Shown here: positions 36,782 through 40,798 of the stretch, one piece after another
How positions within the stretch are numbered: position 1 is the first letter of the stretch
Layout: each line of letters begins with the position of its first letter
Assembly: GCF_027625935.1 (NCBI RefSeq)
Contig: NZ_CP115300.1
Span: 3,224,001-3,288,000, forward strand
DNA from: Streptomyces camelliae
GTDB taxonomy: Bacteria; Actinomycetota; Actinomycetes; Streptomycetales; Streptomycetaceae
Length of the DNA stretch: 64,000 nucleotides
Direction: 5' to 3'
The notes under the pieces: model-generated
Told to the model about the DNA's origin: nothing
Seen by the model: the letters and a program-made list of their open reading frames with translations, nothing else
The model's database searches: none
Position numbers and translations under genes: made by a program

Positions 36782-37105
36782 CTACTGCATGACGGCCTGG
36801 GCGAGCGCGCGGCGGGCGCGGAGCGAGGCACGCTCGGCCCGGCGCTGCATCCGCTGGGCGACCACCAGGCGCAGGGCCCGGCGCTCTCTCCCGGCGTCAT
36901 GGAGTCGCTCGTGCATATGCGCACGAGCCAGGGCTTCTTGCATGAGTTGCATCTCACGGTTCCTGTTCTGGCGCGCTTCGGTCGCGCCGGTGATGGGGAA
37001 GTCTGTGGTCGCGGAGCCTGTGGGCTCGCTGGTGGACGGCTTCATCGGGGCCTGCTTCTTGGGGTCGTGCGTGAGGGGGCGATCGATCGTTCCTGCGGTG
37101 TTCAT
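36782..37105 (-). CDS. Uncharacterised basic helical protein coupled to wblC, 107 aa
   Basis: The N-terminal ~45 residues are polar and disordered (MNTAGTIDRPLTHDPKKQAP). The rest is a long Arg/Ala/Gln-rich helix (REMQLMQEALARAHMHERLHDAGRERRALRLVV), possibly a coiled coil. There are no known domains. Its ATG overlaps the wblC stop as ATGA, so it is made from the same mRNA and probably induced by the same antibiotic stress. The tight coupling argues that it is real. Confidence 0.8.
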   Translation of the reverse strand: MNTAGTIDRPLTHDPKKQAPMKPSTSEPTGSATTDFPITGATEARQNRNREMQLMQEALARAHMHERLHDAGRERRALRLVVAQRMQRRAERASLRARRALAQAVMQ

Positions 37106-37470
37106 GCCGTGACCGGGTTCTTCCGCGGGCGACCACGCGGCCGCTTCCGGGCGACGACGACACCCTGGACGAAGAGCTCGCCGCCCCAGACGCCCCAGGG
37201 CTCGCGCCGCTCCTTGGCACCGGCGAGGCAGGCCTCGATCAGCGGGCAGGTGCGGCAGAGGGACTTGGCGTACTCGACGTCCGCCGGCGACTCGGCGAAG
37301 AAGACCTCCGGGTCGTAGGAGCGGCAGGGGACGGGTACGCCGAGGTTCTCGATGGCGTCGTCGAGCGCGGTGAGCGCGGTGAGGGGGATCAAGGTGGAGT
37401 CCTCCGTGAGGCCGGGCGGGGGGATCGTTTGCGAAGGCGGTACGGACGGGGCGTGCGCTTCGAGTTGCAC
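37102..37470 (-). CDS. wblC: WhiB-family antibiotic-stress regulator WblC (WhiB7 type)
   Basis: Iron-sulfur transcription factor that works with the primary sigma factor to switch on intrinsic antibiotic resistance. Four Cys ligands are in PCRSYDPEVFF and LCRTCPLIEAC. The PWGVWGGELF motif binds the sigma factor. The C-terminal AT-hook RPRGRPRKN is diagnostic of the WhiB7/WblC branch. The GTG at 37470 (VQLEAHAPSVPPS) has AGGAAG upstream. A long 5' leader with an upstream ORF and a terminator precedes it. Its stop overlaps the next gene. Location beside uvrD2 and an ABC1 gene matches mycobacterial whiB7. Confidence 0.96.
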   Translation of the reverse strand: MQLEAHAPSVPPSQTIPPPGLTEDSTLIPLTALTALDDAIENLGVPVPCRSYDPEVFFAESPADVEYAKSLCRTCPLIEACLAGAKERREPWGVWGGELFVQGVVVARKRPRGRPRKNPVTA

Positions 37471-37577
37471 GGTTGGTCTTCCTCGTCTGGTCGTTCCGGC
37501 CGGTTGACCGGGTGTCGGCTTGGTACCGGGTTCTTTTCTTGTCCCGAGGCCCCTTCGCTCCGTCTTCCCGCTTGAGG

Positions 37578-37621
37578 GAAAACAGAAGGGCCGCGGATCC
37601 CGGATGGGGTTCCGCGGCCCT
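37578..37621 (-). terminator. Intrinsic terminator (attenuator) in the wblC leader
   Basis: AGGGCCGCGGA arms at 37621-37611 and 37597-37587 form an 11-bp stem whose loop can pair further. On the minus strand a U-rich run TTCTGTTTTCCC follows directly. It lies 21 bases after the upstream ORF stop and ~110 bases before the wblC start, which is where a conditional terminator is expected. Confidence 0.87.
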
Positions 37622-37642
37622 GAAGGCGCCGGCCTGATCGGA

Positions 37643-37963
37643 TCAGGCTGGATCACTCCAGGGTTCTGGCCCACGGAAGGCCCACATCAGGTGGTGCTGC
37701 GTCGTCTGCTTCCGGAATCCGGCACCGGCCGCCGCAAAGGCATAGGCATGTGCCTGTGCCGCTACCGCTTCCAGTGCCTTGGTCGGTCGCTCATTGCGCT
37801 CGCGGACGGGAAGACCCGCGAGGGCGAGGGAGGATGCCGGCCGGACGGCACGGATGCCGGACAGACCGGTGCCCTGGTTCGAGGCGCCGAGCATGCACGT
37901 GGAGACGGTCGAGCGATCGGTCAGTTTGGCCGAGCTGATGGTGCTGGTGTTGATGCTGATCAC
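37643..37963 (-). CDS. Upstream ORF in the wblC leader, 106 codons
   Basis: GTG at 37963 preceded by a perfect AGGAGG (37977-37972) at eight bases. It encodes MISINTSTISSAKLTDRS... ending in RGPEPWSDPA. No domain is recognised. WhiB7/WblC genes are known to be preceded by translated upstream ORFs whose ribosome stalling during translation stress prevents leader termination. The stop at 37643 lies just ahead of the terminator hairpin, so normal completion would leave it free to form. The length is greater than the short leader peptides of mycobacteria. Translation is inferred from the strong ribosome site. Confidence 0.72.
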   Translation of the reverse strand: MISINTSTISSAKLTDRSTVSTCMLGASNQGTGLSGIRAVRPASSLALAGLPVRERNERPTKALEAVAAQAHAYAFAAAGAGFRKQTTQHHLMWAFRGPEPWSDPA

Positions 37964-38074
37964 TGGACTCGCCTCCTCTCGGCGTCTTGGGGACCGGCGC
38001 GAACCAGTCCGTTCGGATGTGCAAGTACATCACGGAGCCGGGGCCTTGGAGAAGGCCGCTGCTTCCGTGCCTAG

Positions 38075-38115
38075 AACCTATGGGGATTGCTGGGGCATGC
38101 GCAAACTATTTTTTC
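38075..38115 (-). promoter_or_regulatory. WblC-responsive promoter of the wblC leader
   Basis: On the minus strand an AT-rich GAAAAAATAGTT (38115-38104) abuts the -35 TTGCGC (38104-38099). An 18-base spacer then leads to the -10 TAGGTT (38080-38075). An AT-rich patch immediately upstream of -35 is the signature of WhiB7/WblC promoters, where the AT-hook binds, so autoregulation is likely. The upstream ORF starts ~110 bases downstream. Confidence 0.83.
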
Positions 38116-38127
38116 GACGAGTTCGCA

Positions 38128-40350
38128 TCAGTCGTCCCCGTCGCCTTCCTTGATGTCCTGACCTGCGCAGATGGCCAGAACGTCAGCCCCGTAGCTGCGC
38201 AGCTTGCGGTTGAGGACGCCGGAGATGCGGGAGAGTTCGGCGGAGTTCTCCGGCCGGGCCTCGGCGATGGCCATGAGGGTTCGGTCGGTGAAGACGCAGA
38301 AGTCCGGTTGTCCGCTGCGCTCGGCCTGGACGGCCCGCCACTCGCGGAGGCGCTCGTAGAGCCCTTCGTCCATGTCCGAGGGGCAGTCCTCGCAGCGCAT
38401 CAGCTTCATCTCGCCCGCCTCGGTGAGCGTCCGTCCGCAGACCCGGCAGCGGGCGGGGGTGCGCTGGGCGCGTCGCGGTACGGCGGCGGTGTCGCGGCTG
38501 GTGCCCCGTTCGACGCCCGCCGCGGCGCCGGTGCCGGTATGGCCGGCCGTGGCGGTGGTGCCGTGCCGGAGACCGTCGAGGAAGCGGCTGGGCCGGCGGT
38601 TGGGGCGTCCGCCGGGTGAGCGGGACAGGGCCCAGGAAACGTGGAGGCGTTCCCGCGCACGGGTGACGCCGACGTAGAGGAGCCGGCGTTCCTCCTCGAT
38701 CTGCTCATCGGTCTTGGCGTAGGTGATGGGCAGCATGCCCTCGGCGACGCCGACCAGGAAGACGGCGTCCCACTCCAGGCCCTTGGCGGCGTGCAGGGAG
38801 GCGAGGGTGACGCCCTGGACCGTGGGGGCGTGCTGGGCGCCCGCCCGCTCGTCCAGTTCCGCGACGAAGTCGGCGAGGGTGGCCTTCGGGCTGGCGGCGG
38901 CGAGGTCGTGCGCGAGGTTGACCAGGGCGGCCAGGGACTCCCAGCGCTCTCTGACGGCGCCGGAGCCGGCCGGGGGCTCGCTGGTCCAGCCCTCCCCGGA
39001 GAGGACGGCACGCACCTGGGAGGGCAGGTCGACGGCGTCGTCCAGCAGGGAGTCGTTGCCGCCGAAGCGGGCCGCGCCGCGCAGGGCGAGGCCGGCCTTG
39101 CGGACCTCGGGCCGGTCGAAGAAGCGCTCGGCGCCGCGCAGCTGGTAGGGGACGCCGGCGTCGGCGAGGGCCTGTTCATAGGTCTCGGACTGGGCGTTCG
39201 TACGGAACAGGACGGCGATCTCGGCGGCGGGGACGCCCGCGTCGATCAGTTCGCGGATGCGGCGGGCGGCGCCTTCGGCCTCGGCGGGTTCGTCGGTGTA
39301 CTCGGTGTGGACGGGCTCGGGGCCGGGGGGGCGCTGGGAGACGAGTTCCAGCCGGTGGTCGGCGGCTCGGCCGCGGGCCTGGGCGAGCAGGCCGTTGGCG
39401 AGGCGGACCACCTGGGGGGTGGAGCGGTAGTCCCGGACCAGTTTCACGACGGTGGCGCCCGGGTGCCTGGCCCGGAAGTCGAGGAGGTGGTCGGGGGTTG
39501 CTCCCGTGAACGAGTAGATGGTCTGGCTGGCGTCGCCGACGACGCACAGGTTGTCGCGGTCGCCGAGCCACAGCTCCAGCAGGCGCTGCTGCAGTGGGCT
39601 GACGTCCTGGTACTCGTCCACGACGAAGTGCTGGTACTGCGCGCGGACCTGTTCGGCGATGTCGTGTCGGTCCTGGAGGATGGCGACGGTCAGCAGCAGG
39701 ACGTCCTCGAAGTCGATCACCGCGCGGTCGCGTTTTAGGTCTTCGTAGGCCGCGTAGAGGTGTGCGATCTCGGCGGGATCGCGGGGCGCCTCACGGCCGG
39801 CCTTCGCAGCTGCGTAGGGGTAGTCGGCGGGGACGGTCTGGGTGACCTTGGACCATTCGATTTCCGCGGTCACATCGCGTAGCTCGCCGCGGTCGAGCCG
39901 GGTGCCGCAGGCGGCGGCCGCGTCGGCGACGAGTTGGAGCTTGCGGTCGATGAGCCGGGGCATGCCGCCACCGATCGCTTTCGGCCAGAAGTACTGGAGC
40001 TGGCGCAGGGCGGCGGAGTGGAAGGTGCGGGCCTGGACGCCGTGGGCGCCGAGCTGGCGCAGCCGGCCGCGCATCTCTCCGGCGGCGCGGTTGGTGAAGG
40101 TGACGGCGAGCACGCTGGAGGGCTGCAGGATCCCGGCGCGCACCCCGTAGGCGATACGGTGTGTGATCGCCCGGGTCTTGCCCGTGCCCGCCCCGGCCAG
40201 GACGCACACCGGGCCGTGCAGGGCGGTCGCCACCGCGCGCTGCTCGGGGTCGAGCCCTTCGAGCACCGCGTCGGCCCCACTCGGCGGAGCCGAATATTGA
40301 GAACTGCCGGGGCCCTGCGGGAAGAGGGTGGAGTGCGTTGCTGCTGTCAC
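38128..40350 (-). CDS. uvrD2: ATP-dependent DNA helicase UvrD2 with HRDC domain, 740 aa
   Basis: Superfamily 1A helicase. Walker A is AGAGTGKT near residue 50, motif II is VDEYQDVS, and motif VI is LLYVGVTRARERL. Near residue 640 is the tetracysteine zinc motif CRVCGRTLTEAGEMKLMRCEDC, followed by a C-terminal HRDC domain (ERLREWRAVQAERSGQPDF ... RKLRSYGADVLAI). This layout defines mycobacterial-type UvrD2. The GTG at 40350 was chosen; residues further upstream in the frame are not conserved. The ribosome site is weak. The divergent mycoredoxin gene shares a 205-bp intergenic region containing DnaA boxes. Confidence 0.95.
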   Translation of the reverse strand: MTAATHSTLFPQGPGSSQYSAPPSGADAVLEGLDPEQRAVATALHGPVCVLAGAGTGKTRAITHRIAYGVRAGILQPSSVLAVTFTNRAAGEMRGRLRQLGAHGVQARTFHSAALRQLQYFWPKAIGGGMPRLIDRKLQLVADAAAACGTRLDRGELRDVTAEIEWSKVTQTVPADYPYAAAKAGREAPRDPAEIAHLYAAYEDLKRDRAVIDFEDVLLLTVAILQDRHDIAEQVRAQYQHFVVDEYQDVSPLQQRLLELWLGDRDNLCVVGDASQTIYSFTGATPDHLLDFRARHPGATVVKLVRDYRSTPQVVRLANGLLAQARGRAADHRLELVSQRPPGPEPVHTEYTDEPAEAEGAARRIRELIDAGVPAAEIAVLFRTNAQSETYEQALADAGVPYQLRGAERFFDRPEVRKAGLALRGAARFGGNDSLLDDAVDLPSQVRAVLSGEGWTSEPPAGSGAVRERWESLAALVNLAHDLAAASPKATLADFVAELDERAGAQHAPTVQGVTLASLHAAKGLEWDAVFLVGVAEGMLPITYAKTDEQIEEERRLLYVGVTRARERLHVSWALSRSPGGRPNRRPSRFLDGLRHGTTATAGHTGTGAAAGVERGTSRDTAAVPRRAQRTPARCRVCGRTLTEAGEMKLMRCEDCPSDMDEGLYERLREWRAVQAERSGQPDFCVFTDRTLMAIAEARPENSAELSRISGVLNRKLRSYGADVLAICAGQDIKEGDGDD

Positions 40351-40386
40351 ACCGCAATGCTGCCAGGTCGTCCGGGACTGCCGTGG

Positions 40387-40456
40387 CGGTTGTCCACAGG
40401 CGGGCGGGCTTTGTCGTACTAATGCGGCAGGCGTCACAGCAGCCTGTGGACAACCG
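40387..40456. promoter_or_regulatory. Inverted pair of DnaA boxes between uvrD2 and mycoredoxin
   Basis: CGGTTGTCCACAGGC at 40387-40401 is repeated as its exact reverse complement at 40442-40456. Each 15-bp arm contains TTGTCCACA, the Streptomyces DnaA box. The centres are 55 bp apart. The pair sits in the shared regulatory region of two divergent genes. Confidence 0.78.
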
Positions 40457-40482
40457 GGGTGACAGGGCGCATACCCCCGGTG

Positions 40483-40508
40483 GGAATGGCGGGCCCGTCG
40501 CGTACGTT
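40483..40508 (+). promoter_or_regulatory. Sigma-R promoter of the mycoredoxin gene
   Basis: GGAAT (40483-40487), an 18-base spacer and GTT (40506-40508), the same geometry as the sigR promoter in this window. The mycoredoxin ATG is 47 bases downstream of the -10 element. Confidence 0.9.
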
Positions 40509-40555
40509 CTCTCCCCGGACGACCTTTTCCGAGCTGCCTGAGGAGCGCGAGAGAC

Positions 40556-40798
40556 ATGCAGGGCACTGTGACGATGTACAGCACGACTTGGTGCGGCTAC
40601 TGCCAGCGGCTGAAGAAGCAGCTGGAGCGGGAGGGCATCGCCTACACCGAGATCAACATCGAGCAGGACCCCGAGTCCGCCGCGTTCGTGGAGAAGGCGA
40701 ACGGCGGAAACCAGACGGTCCCGACCGTGCTCTTCGCGGACGGCAGCACGCTGACGAACCCGTCGCTGGCTCAGGTGAAGCAGAAGCTGGCCGCGTAA
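40556..40798 (+). CDS. mrx1: Mycoredoxin (glutaredoxin-like, mycothiol-dependent)
   Basis: 80-residue glutaredoxin-fold protein with active site WCGYC at residues 12-16 and a cis-Pro loop TVPTVLFADG. It reduces protein-mycothiol mixed disulfides in actinobacteria, which lack glutathione. Its own sigma-R promoter lies upstream, consistent with a thiol-stress role. The ATG at 40556 is preceded by GAGGAGCGCGAGAG. A hairpin follows the stop. The convergent methyltransferase frame overlaps its 3' half because of an apparent frameshift in that gene. Confidence 0.95.
   Translation: MQGTVTMYSTTWCGYCQRLKKQLEREGIAYTEINIEQDPESAAFVEKANGGNQTVPTVLFADGSTLTNPSLAQVKQKLAA

Follow-up and report, generated by a model that had tools for sequence, protein, structure and literature searches.

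Results

Organisation of the wblC locus

In the window (the whole stretch of 64,000 nt that was analysed, belonging to a 9.6-Mb genome) the WhiB7-type gene wblC is preceded by a leader of about 600 nt, the transcription start of which we infer to lie near 38068, directly after a UvrD-type helicase gene. The locus is composed as follows:

37102-37470, reverse strand: wblC (WhiB7 type), 122 amino acids, GTG start; Pfam WhiB domain PF02467, E 1.2e-14
37587-37621, reverse strand: intrinsic terminator hairpin, starting 21 nt past the uORF stop, with 11 outer and 3 inner pairs
37643-37963, reverse strand: upstream open reading frame (uORF) of 106 codons, GTG start at 37963, TGA stop at 37643-37645
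37972-37977, reverse strand: Shine-Dalgarno sequence AGGAGG of the uORF, with an 8-nt spacer to the start
38075-38113, reverse strand: WblC-type promoter, as read from the sequence
38075-38080, reverse strand: -10 hexamer TAGGTT of this promoter
38099-38104, reverse strand: -35 hexamer TTGCGC, followed by an 18-nt spacer
38108-38113, reverse strand: AAAAAT box of this promoter

The promoter, the 106-codon uORF with its AGGAGG and the terminator 21 nt past the uORF stop all lie where a first-pass annotation of this DNA had placed them; the U-run that it had ascribed to the terminator proved to be interrupted (tail UCUGUUUU).

A match to wblC was found in 148 of 150 same-genus genomes, and an NCBIfam search of its product assigned no family. 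Our comparisons use 163 distinct leaders, namely the window's own, those from 140 fetched same-genus genomes and 22 same-genus loci from an order search; the genomes G028, G036, G090, G113, G120, G121 and G141, which carry wblC, were left out of this set. The arrangement of box, -35 and -10 recurs in 160 of the 163 leaders when loose patterns are applied to the bare sequence. The described WblC motif is GAAAWY, located 3 nt upstream of the -35, and the wblC promoter is reported to be autoregulated (PMC7157823); the box in the window matches this motif at five of six positions. A generic sigma-70 scan of 37000-38700 listed no promoter, because both hexamers fit the consensus poorly. The helicase gene immediately upstream of the promoter (38128-40584) encodes a UvrD-type protein with an HRDC domain, and helicase-like peptides resembling it were seen by eye upstream of many other actinobacterial whiB7 loci.

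Distribution and length of the uORF

The uORF was present in every one of the 163 same-genus leaders, with 88-127 codons (median 107), a GTG start in 151 and an ATG start in 12 of them, and TGA as the stop in all. AGGAGG precedes the chosen start in 160 leaders and five of its six bases do so in 3, a count that is partly circular since the start was picked by the best Shine-Dalgarno match. Conservation around this site (CGCCGAGAGGAGGCG) extends well past the AGGAGG core throughout the genus. The length of the uORF is therefore the norm of the genus and not special to this strain, and in other genera of the order 11 of 14 loci have an uORF of 103-152 codons (two of the remaining three lack a candidate and one has a weak candidate of 65 codons). 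Thus the uORF cannot be called unusually long, as the first-pass annotation had done. The same annotation described mycobacterial uORFs as short, which is correct in so far as they are shorter (median 64 codons), but they are not very short: 37 of 39 mycobacterial whiB7 leaders contained an uORF, of 49-102 codons. This sample consisted of the best 80 of 441 named loci, found with a WhiB7 query that proved to be mycobacterial; among its non-mycobacterial loci 31 of 41 had an uORF (37-162 codons, median 85).

Other genera contributed 65 loci, 14 of them from the order search and 51 from a class search; an uORF candidate was chosen in 57 of these and none in 8. The choice was mechanical, its score favoured endings such as PPV, and some choices are weak (e.g., L197 and L211); the 29 best-scoring uORFs have a median of 75 codons and range from 43 to 138. 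The candidates from these genera (L173-L237) often end in WSPPV, GPPV or SPPG, compared to WSDPA in Streptomyces. With a score of at least 6, 19 end in PPV and 9 in PPG, numbers that lean upward because the score partly favoured such endings. Perhaps they reflect another antiterminator strand with another coding outcome.

Homologues of the uORF product form 1681 protein clusters, and among the 120 listed the named ones are hypothetical or uncharacterized proteins from Streptomyces. An Rfam search with E up to 1 returned four matches, all to animal RNA families and far below their gathering scores.

Selective constraint on the uORF

Synonymous and non-synonymous change was compared in 600 leader pairs with an uORF identity of at least 80%, drawn from a subset of 121 leaders. 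The uORF gave a pN/pS of 0.85 (pS 0.169, pN 0.144), and wblC of the same pairs 0.18 (pS 0.189, pN 0.034). Along the uORF the constraint is distributed unevenly:

Codons 2-12: pS 0.139, pN 0.254
Codons 13-36 (37856-37927, reverse strand): pS 0.110, pN 0.161, synonymous sites strongly constrained
Codons 37-56: pS 0.347, pN 0.207
Codons 57-70: pS 0.108, pN 0.120
Codons 71-82: pS 0.193, pN 0.095, ratio 0.49
Codons 83-92: pS 0.070, pN 0.168
Codons 93-106: pS 0.092, pN 0.019, ratio 0.21, similar to wblC

The low ratio in codons 93-106 means that, judged by the ratio alone, selection on the peptide is possible there. More than 90% conserved are the residues K13, T15, D16, C23, L25, G33, W94, R97, P101 and W102; the codons of the invariant residues are mostly invariant at their synonymous sites as well. 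Codons 13-36 are nearly invariant synonymously across the 163 leaders, including the rare codons AAA13 and GAT16. A search for helices in this stretch yielded a hairpin at codons 14-19, which is 75-98% paired without convincing covariation and does not account for the constraint.

Rare codons make up 39.6% of uORF codons 57-70 and 37.2% of codons 95-106, whereas they account for 7.5% in a 464-kb sample of this genome comprising 334 predicted genes. We considered the rare-codon stretch of codons 57-82 as a slow-translation signal and rejected it, as it is not extreme and seems partly due to RNA pairing: 1503 of 117773 26-codon windows, in 74 of the 334 predicted genes, match or undercut it in codon adaptation. 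The codons of A63 and G80 covary (GCG with GGC in five of six cases), which suggests that part of the stretch is shaped by RNA pairing.

RNA elements of the leader

Upstream of the terminator the leader contains the following elements, several of them within the uORF:

38031-38069, reverse strand: stem-loop SL1 at the 5' end of the leader, folding at -20.6 kcal/mol
37991-38010, reverse strand: stem-loop SL2, upstream of the uORF ribosome-binding site
37970-37984, reverse strand: near-invariant CGCC-GAGAGGA-GGCG element, which contains the AGGAGG of the uORF
37721-37778, reverse strand: hairpin S2:S3, formed by GGCACYGG (37771-37778) and CCGGUGCC (37721-37728) and enclosing the alanine block
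37721-37777, reverse strand: alanine-rich block, codons 63-81, with 11 Ala among 19 residues, inside the rare-codon-rich codons 57-82
37668-37678, reverse strand: antiterminator strand S4, UUCCGUGGGCC, uORF codons 96-99, pairing with 37610-37620
37649-37660, reverse strand: UGGA-GNRA-UCCA hairpin, codons 102-105
37632-37648, reverse strand: stop-codon hairpin, spanning the uORF stop

In the 163 leaders the outer six pairs of SL1 are 90-99% paired with some changes on both sides, and seven pairs of SL2 are 80-98% paired with alternation of CG and UA (the eighth reaches 49%). The four pairs of the candidate CGCC-GAGAGGA-GGCG helix are 98-100% paired with hardly any variation, and the helix is unproven because its sequence scarcely varies.

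Within and directly behind the 3' part of the uORF the support was assessed on 78 aligned leaders. In S2:S3 94.0% of the cells are paired and four of eight pairs show changes on both sides; in the stop-codon hairpin the respective values are 98.5% and four of seven pairs, and codon 106 varies with its hairpin pairs kept. The UGGA-GNRA-UCCA hairpin is 98.7% paired and its stem is free of covariation. Of the 163 leaders 153 have a GUGA, GAGA or GCGA loop here, and the GAGA variant, present in 14, changes codon 103 from Ser to Arg. Taken together, the terminator, the stop-codon hairpin, S2:S3 and the GNRA hairpin contain 25 cells with both-side changes compared to a shuffled mean of 4.5, and none of 500 shuffles equalled this number, although such controls ignore the kinship among the 78 leaders. 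Sliding the partners by 1-3 columns reduced the pairing from 98.0% to 27-49%, and a slide of -3 kept 19 both-side cells.

Two further pairings were rejected. Codons 31-33 with codons 79-81 displayed no clear covariation on inspection of the 70 commonest combinations, and RNAalifold proposed a pairing of codons 80-81 with a strand behind the stop, one pair of which is lost in 5 of 78 sequences.

On these comparative data the 3' half of the uORF looks constrained as RNA. More generally, the uORF appears to be constrained mostly as an RNA that happens to be translated and less as a peptide.

Terminator, antiterminator and predicted switch

The terminator stem is nearly invariant, with 99.6% of the cells paired in the 78 aligned leaders. 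For the 83-nt segment 37560-37642 the folding energy is -48.2 kcal/mol (z -4.36; none of 200 shuffles was as good), a value that includes a second hairpin. This hairpin (37560-37586) follows right after the terminator and pairs the U-rich tail of the latter; the alignment shows little conservation on the 3' side of the second hairpin. A strict terminator scan did not list the hairpin at 37587-37621, probably because of its internal mismatch.

The partner of S4 is GGGCCGCGGAA, the 5' arm of the terminator (37610-37620), so that the same arm is common to terminator and antiterminator. In the 78 leaders 98.1% of the S4 cells are paired with one both-side change, and the two outer pairs are lost in 6 leaders; in one leader (L125) codon 96 and both arms of the terminator have all changed together. 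Since S4 has almost no covariation of its own, its support comes from conservation and from the literature. When the window's segment stops short of the 3' arm of the terminator it folds into the antiterminator, and when it is complete its minimum-energy fold has the terminator. In the RNAalifold consensus of the complete segment the antiterminator is absent and part of S4 is paired locally instead. Therefore, the switch must be kinetic.

We located the switch by a folding scan of 61 leaders (every second of the 121). The transcript was cut off ahead of the terminator's 3' arm, and the ribosomal A site was placed in turn on each of the final 41 sense codons and on the stop (codons 66-107 in the window). 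The scan assumes equilibrium, a ribosome whose front lies 12 nt beyond the codon in the A site, and that bases on either side of the ribosome do not pair with each other. The mean pairing probability of S4 was 0.58-0.72 at A-site positions -40 to -15 relative to the last sense codon, fell to 0.36 at -14, 0.18 at -13 and 0.06 at -12, and was 0.00 from -11 on. In the window's own leader it was 0.69 at codon 91, 0.40 at codon 92 and 0.08 at codon 93. Leaders differed more from one another at -40 to -33 (sd 0.20-0.25) than close to the switch (sd 0.07-0.11), thus some leaders have competing structures at those upstream positions. As modelled, the leader is a two-state switch with a predicted step at codons 92-93 of 106, and no gradient.

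The alanine block

Eleven Ala per 19 residues, as found in codons 63-81, were reached by 15 of 120111 19-residue windows of the 334 predicted genes, all of them in one gene. The highest Ala count in any 19 residues has a median of 10 over the 163 leaders (range 7-13), and 158 leaders have 8 or more. Of 1320 background segments, each 106 residues long, 124 attain 8 Ala and 16 attain 10. Between the end of the block and the stop lie a median of 27 codons (10th-90th percentile 25-30), and about 11-13 codons separate its end from the predicted switch. Such an Ala cluster ahead of S4 is the arrangement expected of an alanine-responsive attenuator. All four Ala codons are used at A71 and at A78, with Ala kept in 96-97% of the leaders; this variety argues for selection on the amino acid, although RNA structure could equally constrain the first two bases of these codons. 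At least 8 Ala in 19 residues occur in 36 of 37 mycobacterial uORFs, compared to 10 of 31 from other named genera (best 80 of 441 loci), and in 13 of the 57 uORFs of the order and class sample, a few of which resemble mycobacterial ones. On inspection, the mycobacterial uORFs are unrelated in sequence to that of Streptomyces.

Discussion

The wblC leader analysed here is a real, genus-wide and well-conserved example of a known attenuator type. It unites a WhiB7-type gene, an uORF with a Shine-Dalgarno sequence, a terminator, an overlapping antiterminator strand and a WblC-box promoter. We consider it highly probable that the leader acts as an uORF-controlled transcription attenuator of the whiB7/wblC type that is gated by the ribosome. 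Ribosome-controlled attenuation of wblC was also the proposal of the first-pass annotation, and it gains from a near-invariant, mutually exclusive antiterminator strand in the last codons and from the publication of the mechanism.

According to this model, a freely moving ribosome would reach the last uORF codons in time and cover S4 (codons 96-99), the terminator would then fold and transcription would end before wblC. If the ribosome were delayed or halted before about codon 91, S4 would be free to pair with the terminator's 5' arm, and the RNA polymerase would continue into wblC. The WblC made in this way would activate its own promoter; this autoregulation, as well as the control of read-through by uORF translation and antibiotics, is taken from the literature. 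What we add to the model are the elements, their conservation and covariation and the computed site of switching among the final 41 codons. The model further supposes that ribosome positions upstream of codon 66 act like the scanned ones and that the alanine block would be the main stall zone. If codons 1-65, which lie ahead of the scanned part, indeed behave alike, the long uORF would not grade the output by stall position but would provide about 90 codons where any delay counts, and its length could raise the total chance of a lagging ribosome.

One would argue that it is the encoded peptide which acts, be it as a regulatory peptide in free form or by a sequence-specific arrest that involves most of its length, a possibility also raised in the first-pass annotation. 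The genus-wide conservation of the ORF, its ten residues above 90% and the low pN/pS of codons 93-106 (0.21) and 71-82 (0.49), where selection on amino acids is possible, would agree with this. However, the comparison of synonymous and non-synonymous change that the annotation had suggested returned a pN/pS of 0.85 for the uORF against 0.18 for wblC, and a pN of 0.144 against 0.034, and only codons 93-106 are as low as wblC. The invariant residues mostly coincide with invariant synonymous sites, codon 103 changes from Ser to Arg with the GNRA loop retained, and codon 106 changes with its hairpin pairs retained. Because the ratio is so different from that of wblC and residues at the end change while the pairing is kept, the sequence comparison makes a free peptide product unlikely, and an acting peptide of either kind seems to us improbable; the alanine block may still act through the nascent chain or the tRNA. 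The same annotation had suggested that the length allows many stall positions and graded sensing. Read-through would then differ by stall position via several alternative RNA structures. In favour of this are the three stretches with lowered synonymous change (codons 13-36, 57-70 and 83-106), the GGCAC(C/U)GG-like strands at codons 31-33 and 62-65, both of which are complementary to codons 79-81, and the wider spread of the scan at -40 to -33. Contrastingly, the mean of the 61 leaders is a plateau with a single step across the last 41 codons, the scan of codons 66-107 predicts a two-state step at codons 92-93, and the pairings that could provide further states (codons 31-33 with 79-81, and codons 80-81 with the post-stop strand) are those rejected above. 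Graded sensing is thus unlikely, if somewhat less so than an acting peptide.

Ribosome-dependent control of translation is known for resistance genes, and the long and structured leader might suggest that it is the translation of wblC that is controlled, as in the erm type, instead of the termination of transcription. Yet the uORF is separated from wblC by a strong and conserved intrinsic terminator, and the published work on the whiB7/wblC family describes transcriptional attenuation (PMC11550727, PMC4128351). We regard erm-type control as very improbable.

The mycobacterial whiB7 leader is reportedly the subject of studies by Burian and Thompson in 2018 and by Poulton in 2024. In whiB7/wblC leaders uORF translation favours the terminator, and disrupted translation leads to the antiterminator (PMC11550727, PMC10727445); induction by amino acid starvation is described as well (PMC11550727, PMC12121999). 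The closest relative is the Streptomyces wblC attenuator of Lee, Lee and Roe (2022), which is described as having the same gene, an uORF, a Rho-independent terminator and an antiterminator that forms on failed uORF translation (PMC11550727); it is the same locus in another strain. The mycobacterial whiB7 leader (Dinan 2014, PMC4128351) likewise combines an alanine-rich uORF, a terminator and attenuation, but its uORF is shorter (median 64 codons), unrelated in sequence and different at its C-terminal end. In attenuators of the trp/ilv type, such as the ilvB1 leader (PMC13236596), stalling at regulatory codons also frees an antiterminator, however, they precede a biosynthetic operon and not an activator of resistance transcription, as is the case here with a putative role of Ala codons. 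The S. coelicolor ABCF leaders are5sc and tiaA, from the same genus, share the uORF and the premature terminator and differ by very short uORFs (MLV and MVGDDDISG) and by stalling at the start codon (PMC12421871). The attenuation mechanism is therefore already known, and our comparison adds the range of uORF lengths, the pN/pS analysis, the RNA elements within the uORF and the predicted switch codon. In the literature we found no Streptomyces report of an alanine block, a pN/pS or a switch codon, which is weak evidence of absence since Lee 2022 was outside our reach. We see the useful additions in the constraint on RNA rather than on peptide and in the alanine block.

The alanine block is a plausible candidate for a stall zone. 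The mycobacterial whiB7 is said to respond to alanine starvation (Poulton 2024). Additionally, chloramphenicol and linezolid arrest ribosomes best when Ala is the penultimate residue (PMC8987054), and the WblC regulon of S. coelicolor includes genes for aminoacyl-tRNA synthetase, tRNA and amino acid biosynthesis; alanine goes unmentioned in the text of the regulon paper (PMC7157823). A literature search found no report of wblC induction by alanine starvation in Streptomyces. From the conservation of Ala together with the starvation, drug-arrest and regulon facts one may tentatively propose, with the balance still somewhat against it, that the block is a selected stall zone which senses both alanyl-tRNA shortage and drugs of the phenicol/oxazolidinone type.

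These findings also call for caution: conserved annotated hypothetical proteins like the product of this uORF (1681 clusters) need not mean a conserved protein function. In the 2025 eLife paper on toiL, antibiotic-induced stalling in the whiB7 uORF is stated to be untested (PMC12121999). For Streptomyces the present map makes the question of stalling concrete, as it offers a predicted switch at codons 92-93, a proposed stall zone at codons 63-81 and RNA elements that can be separated from each other.
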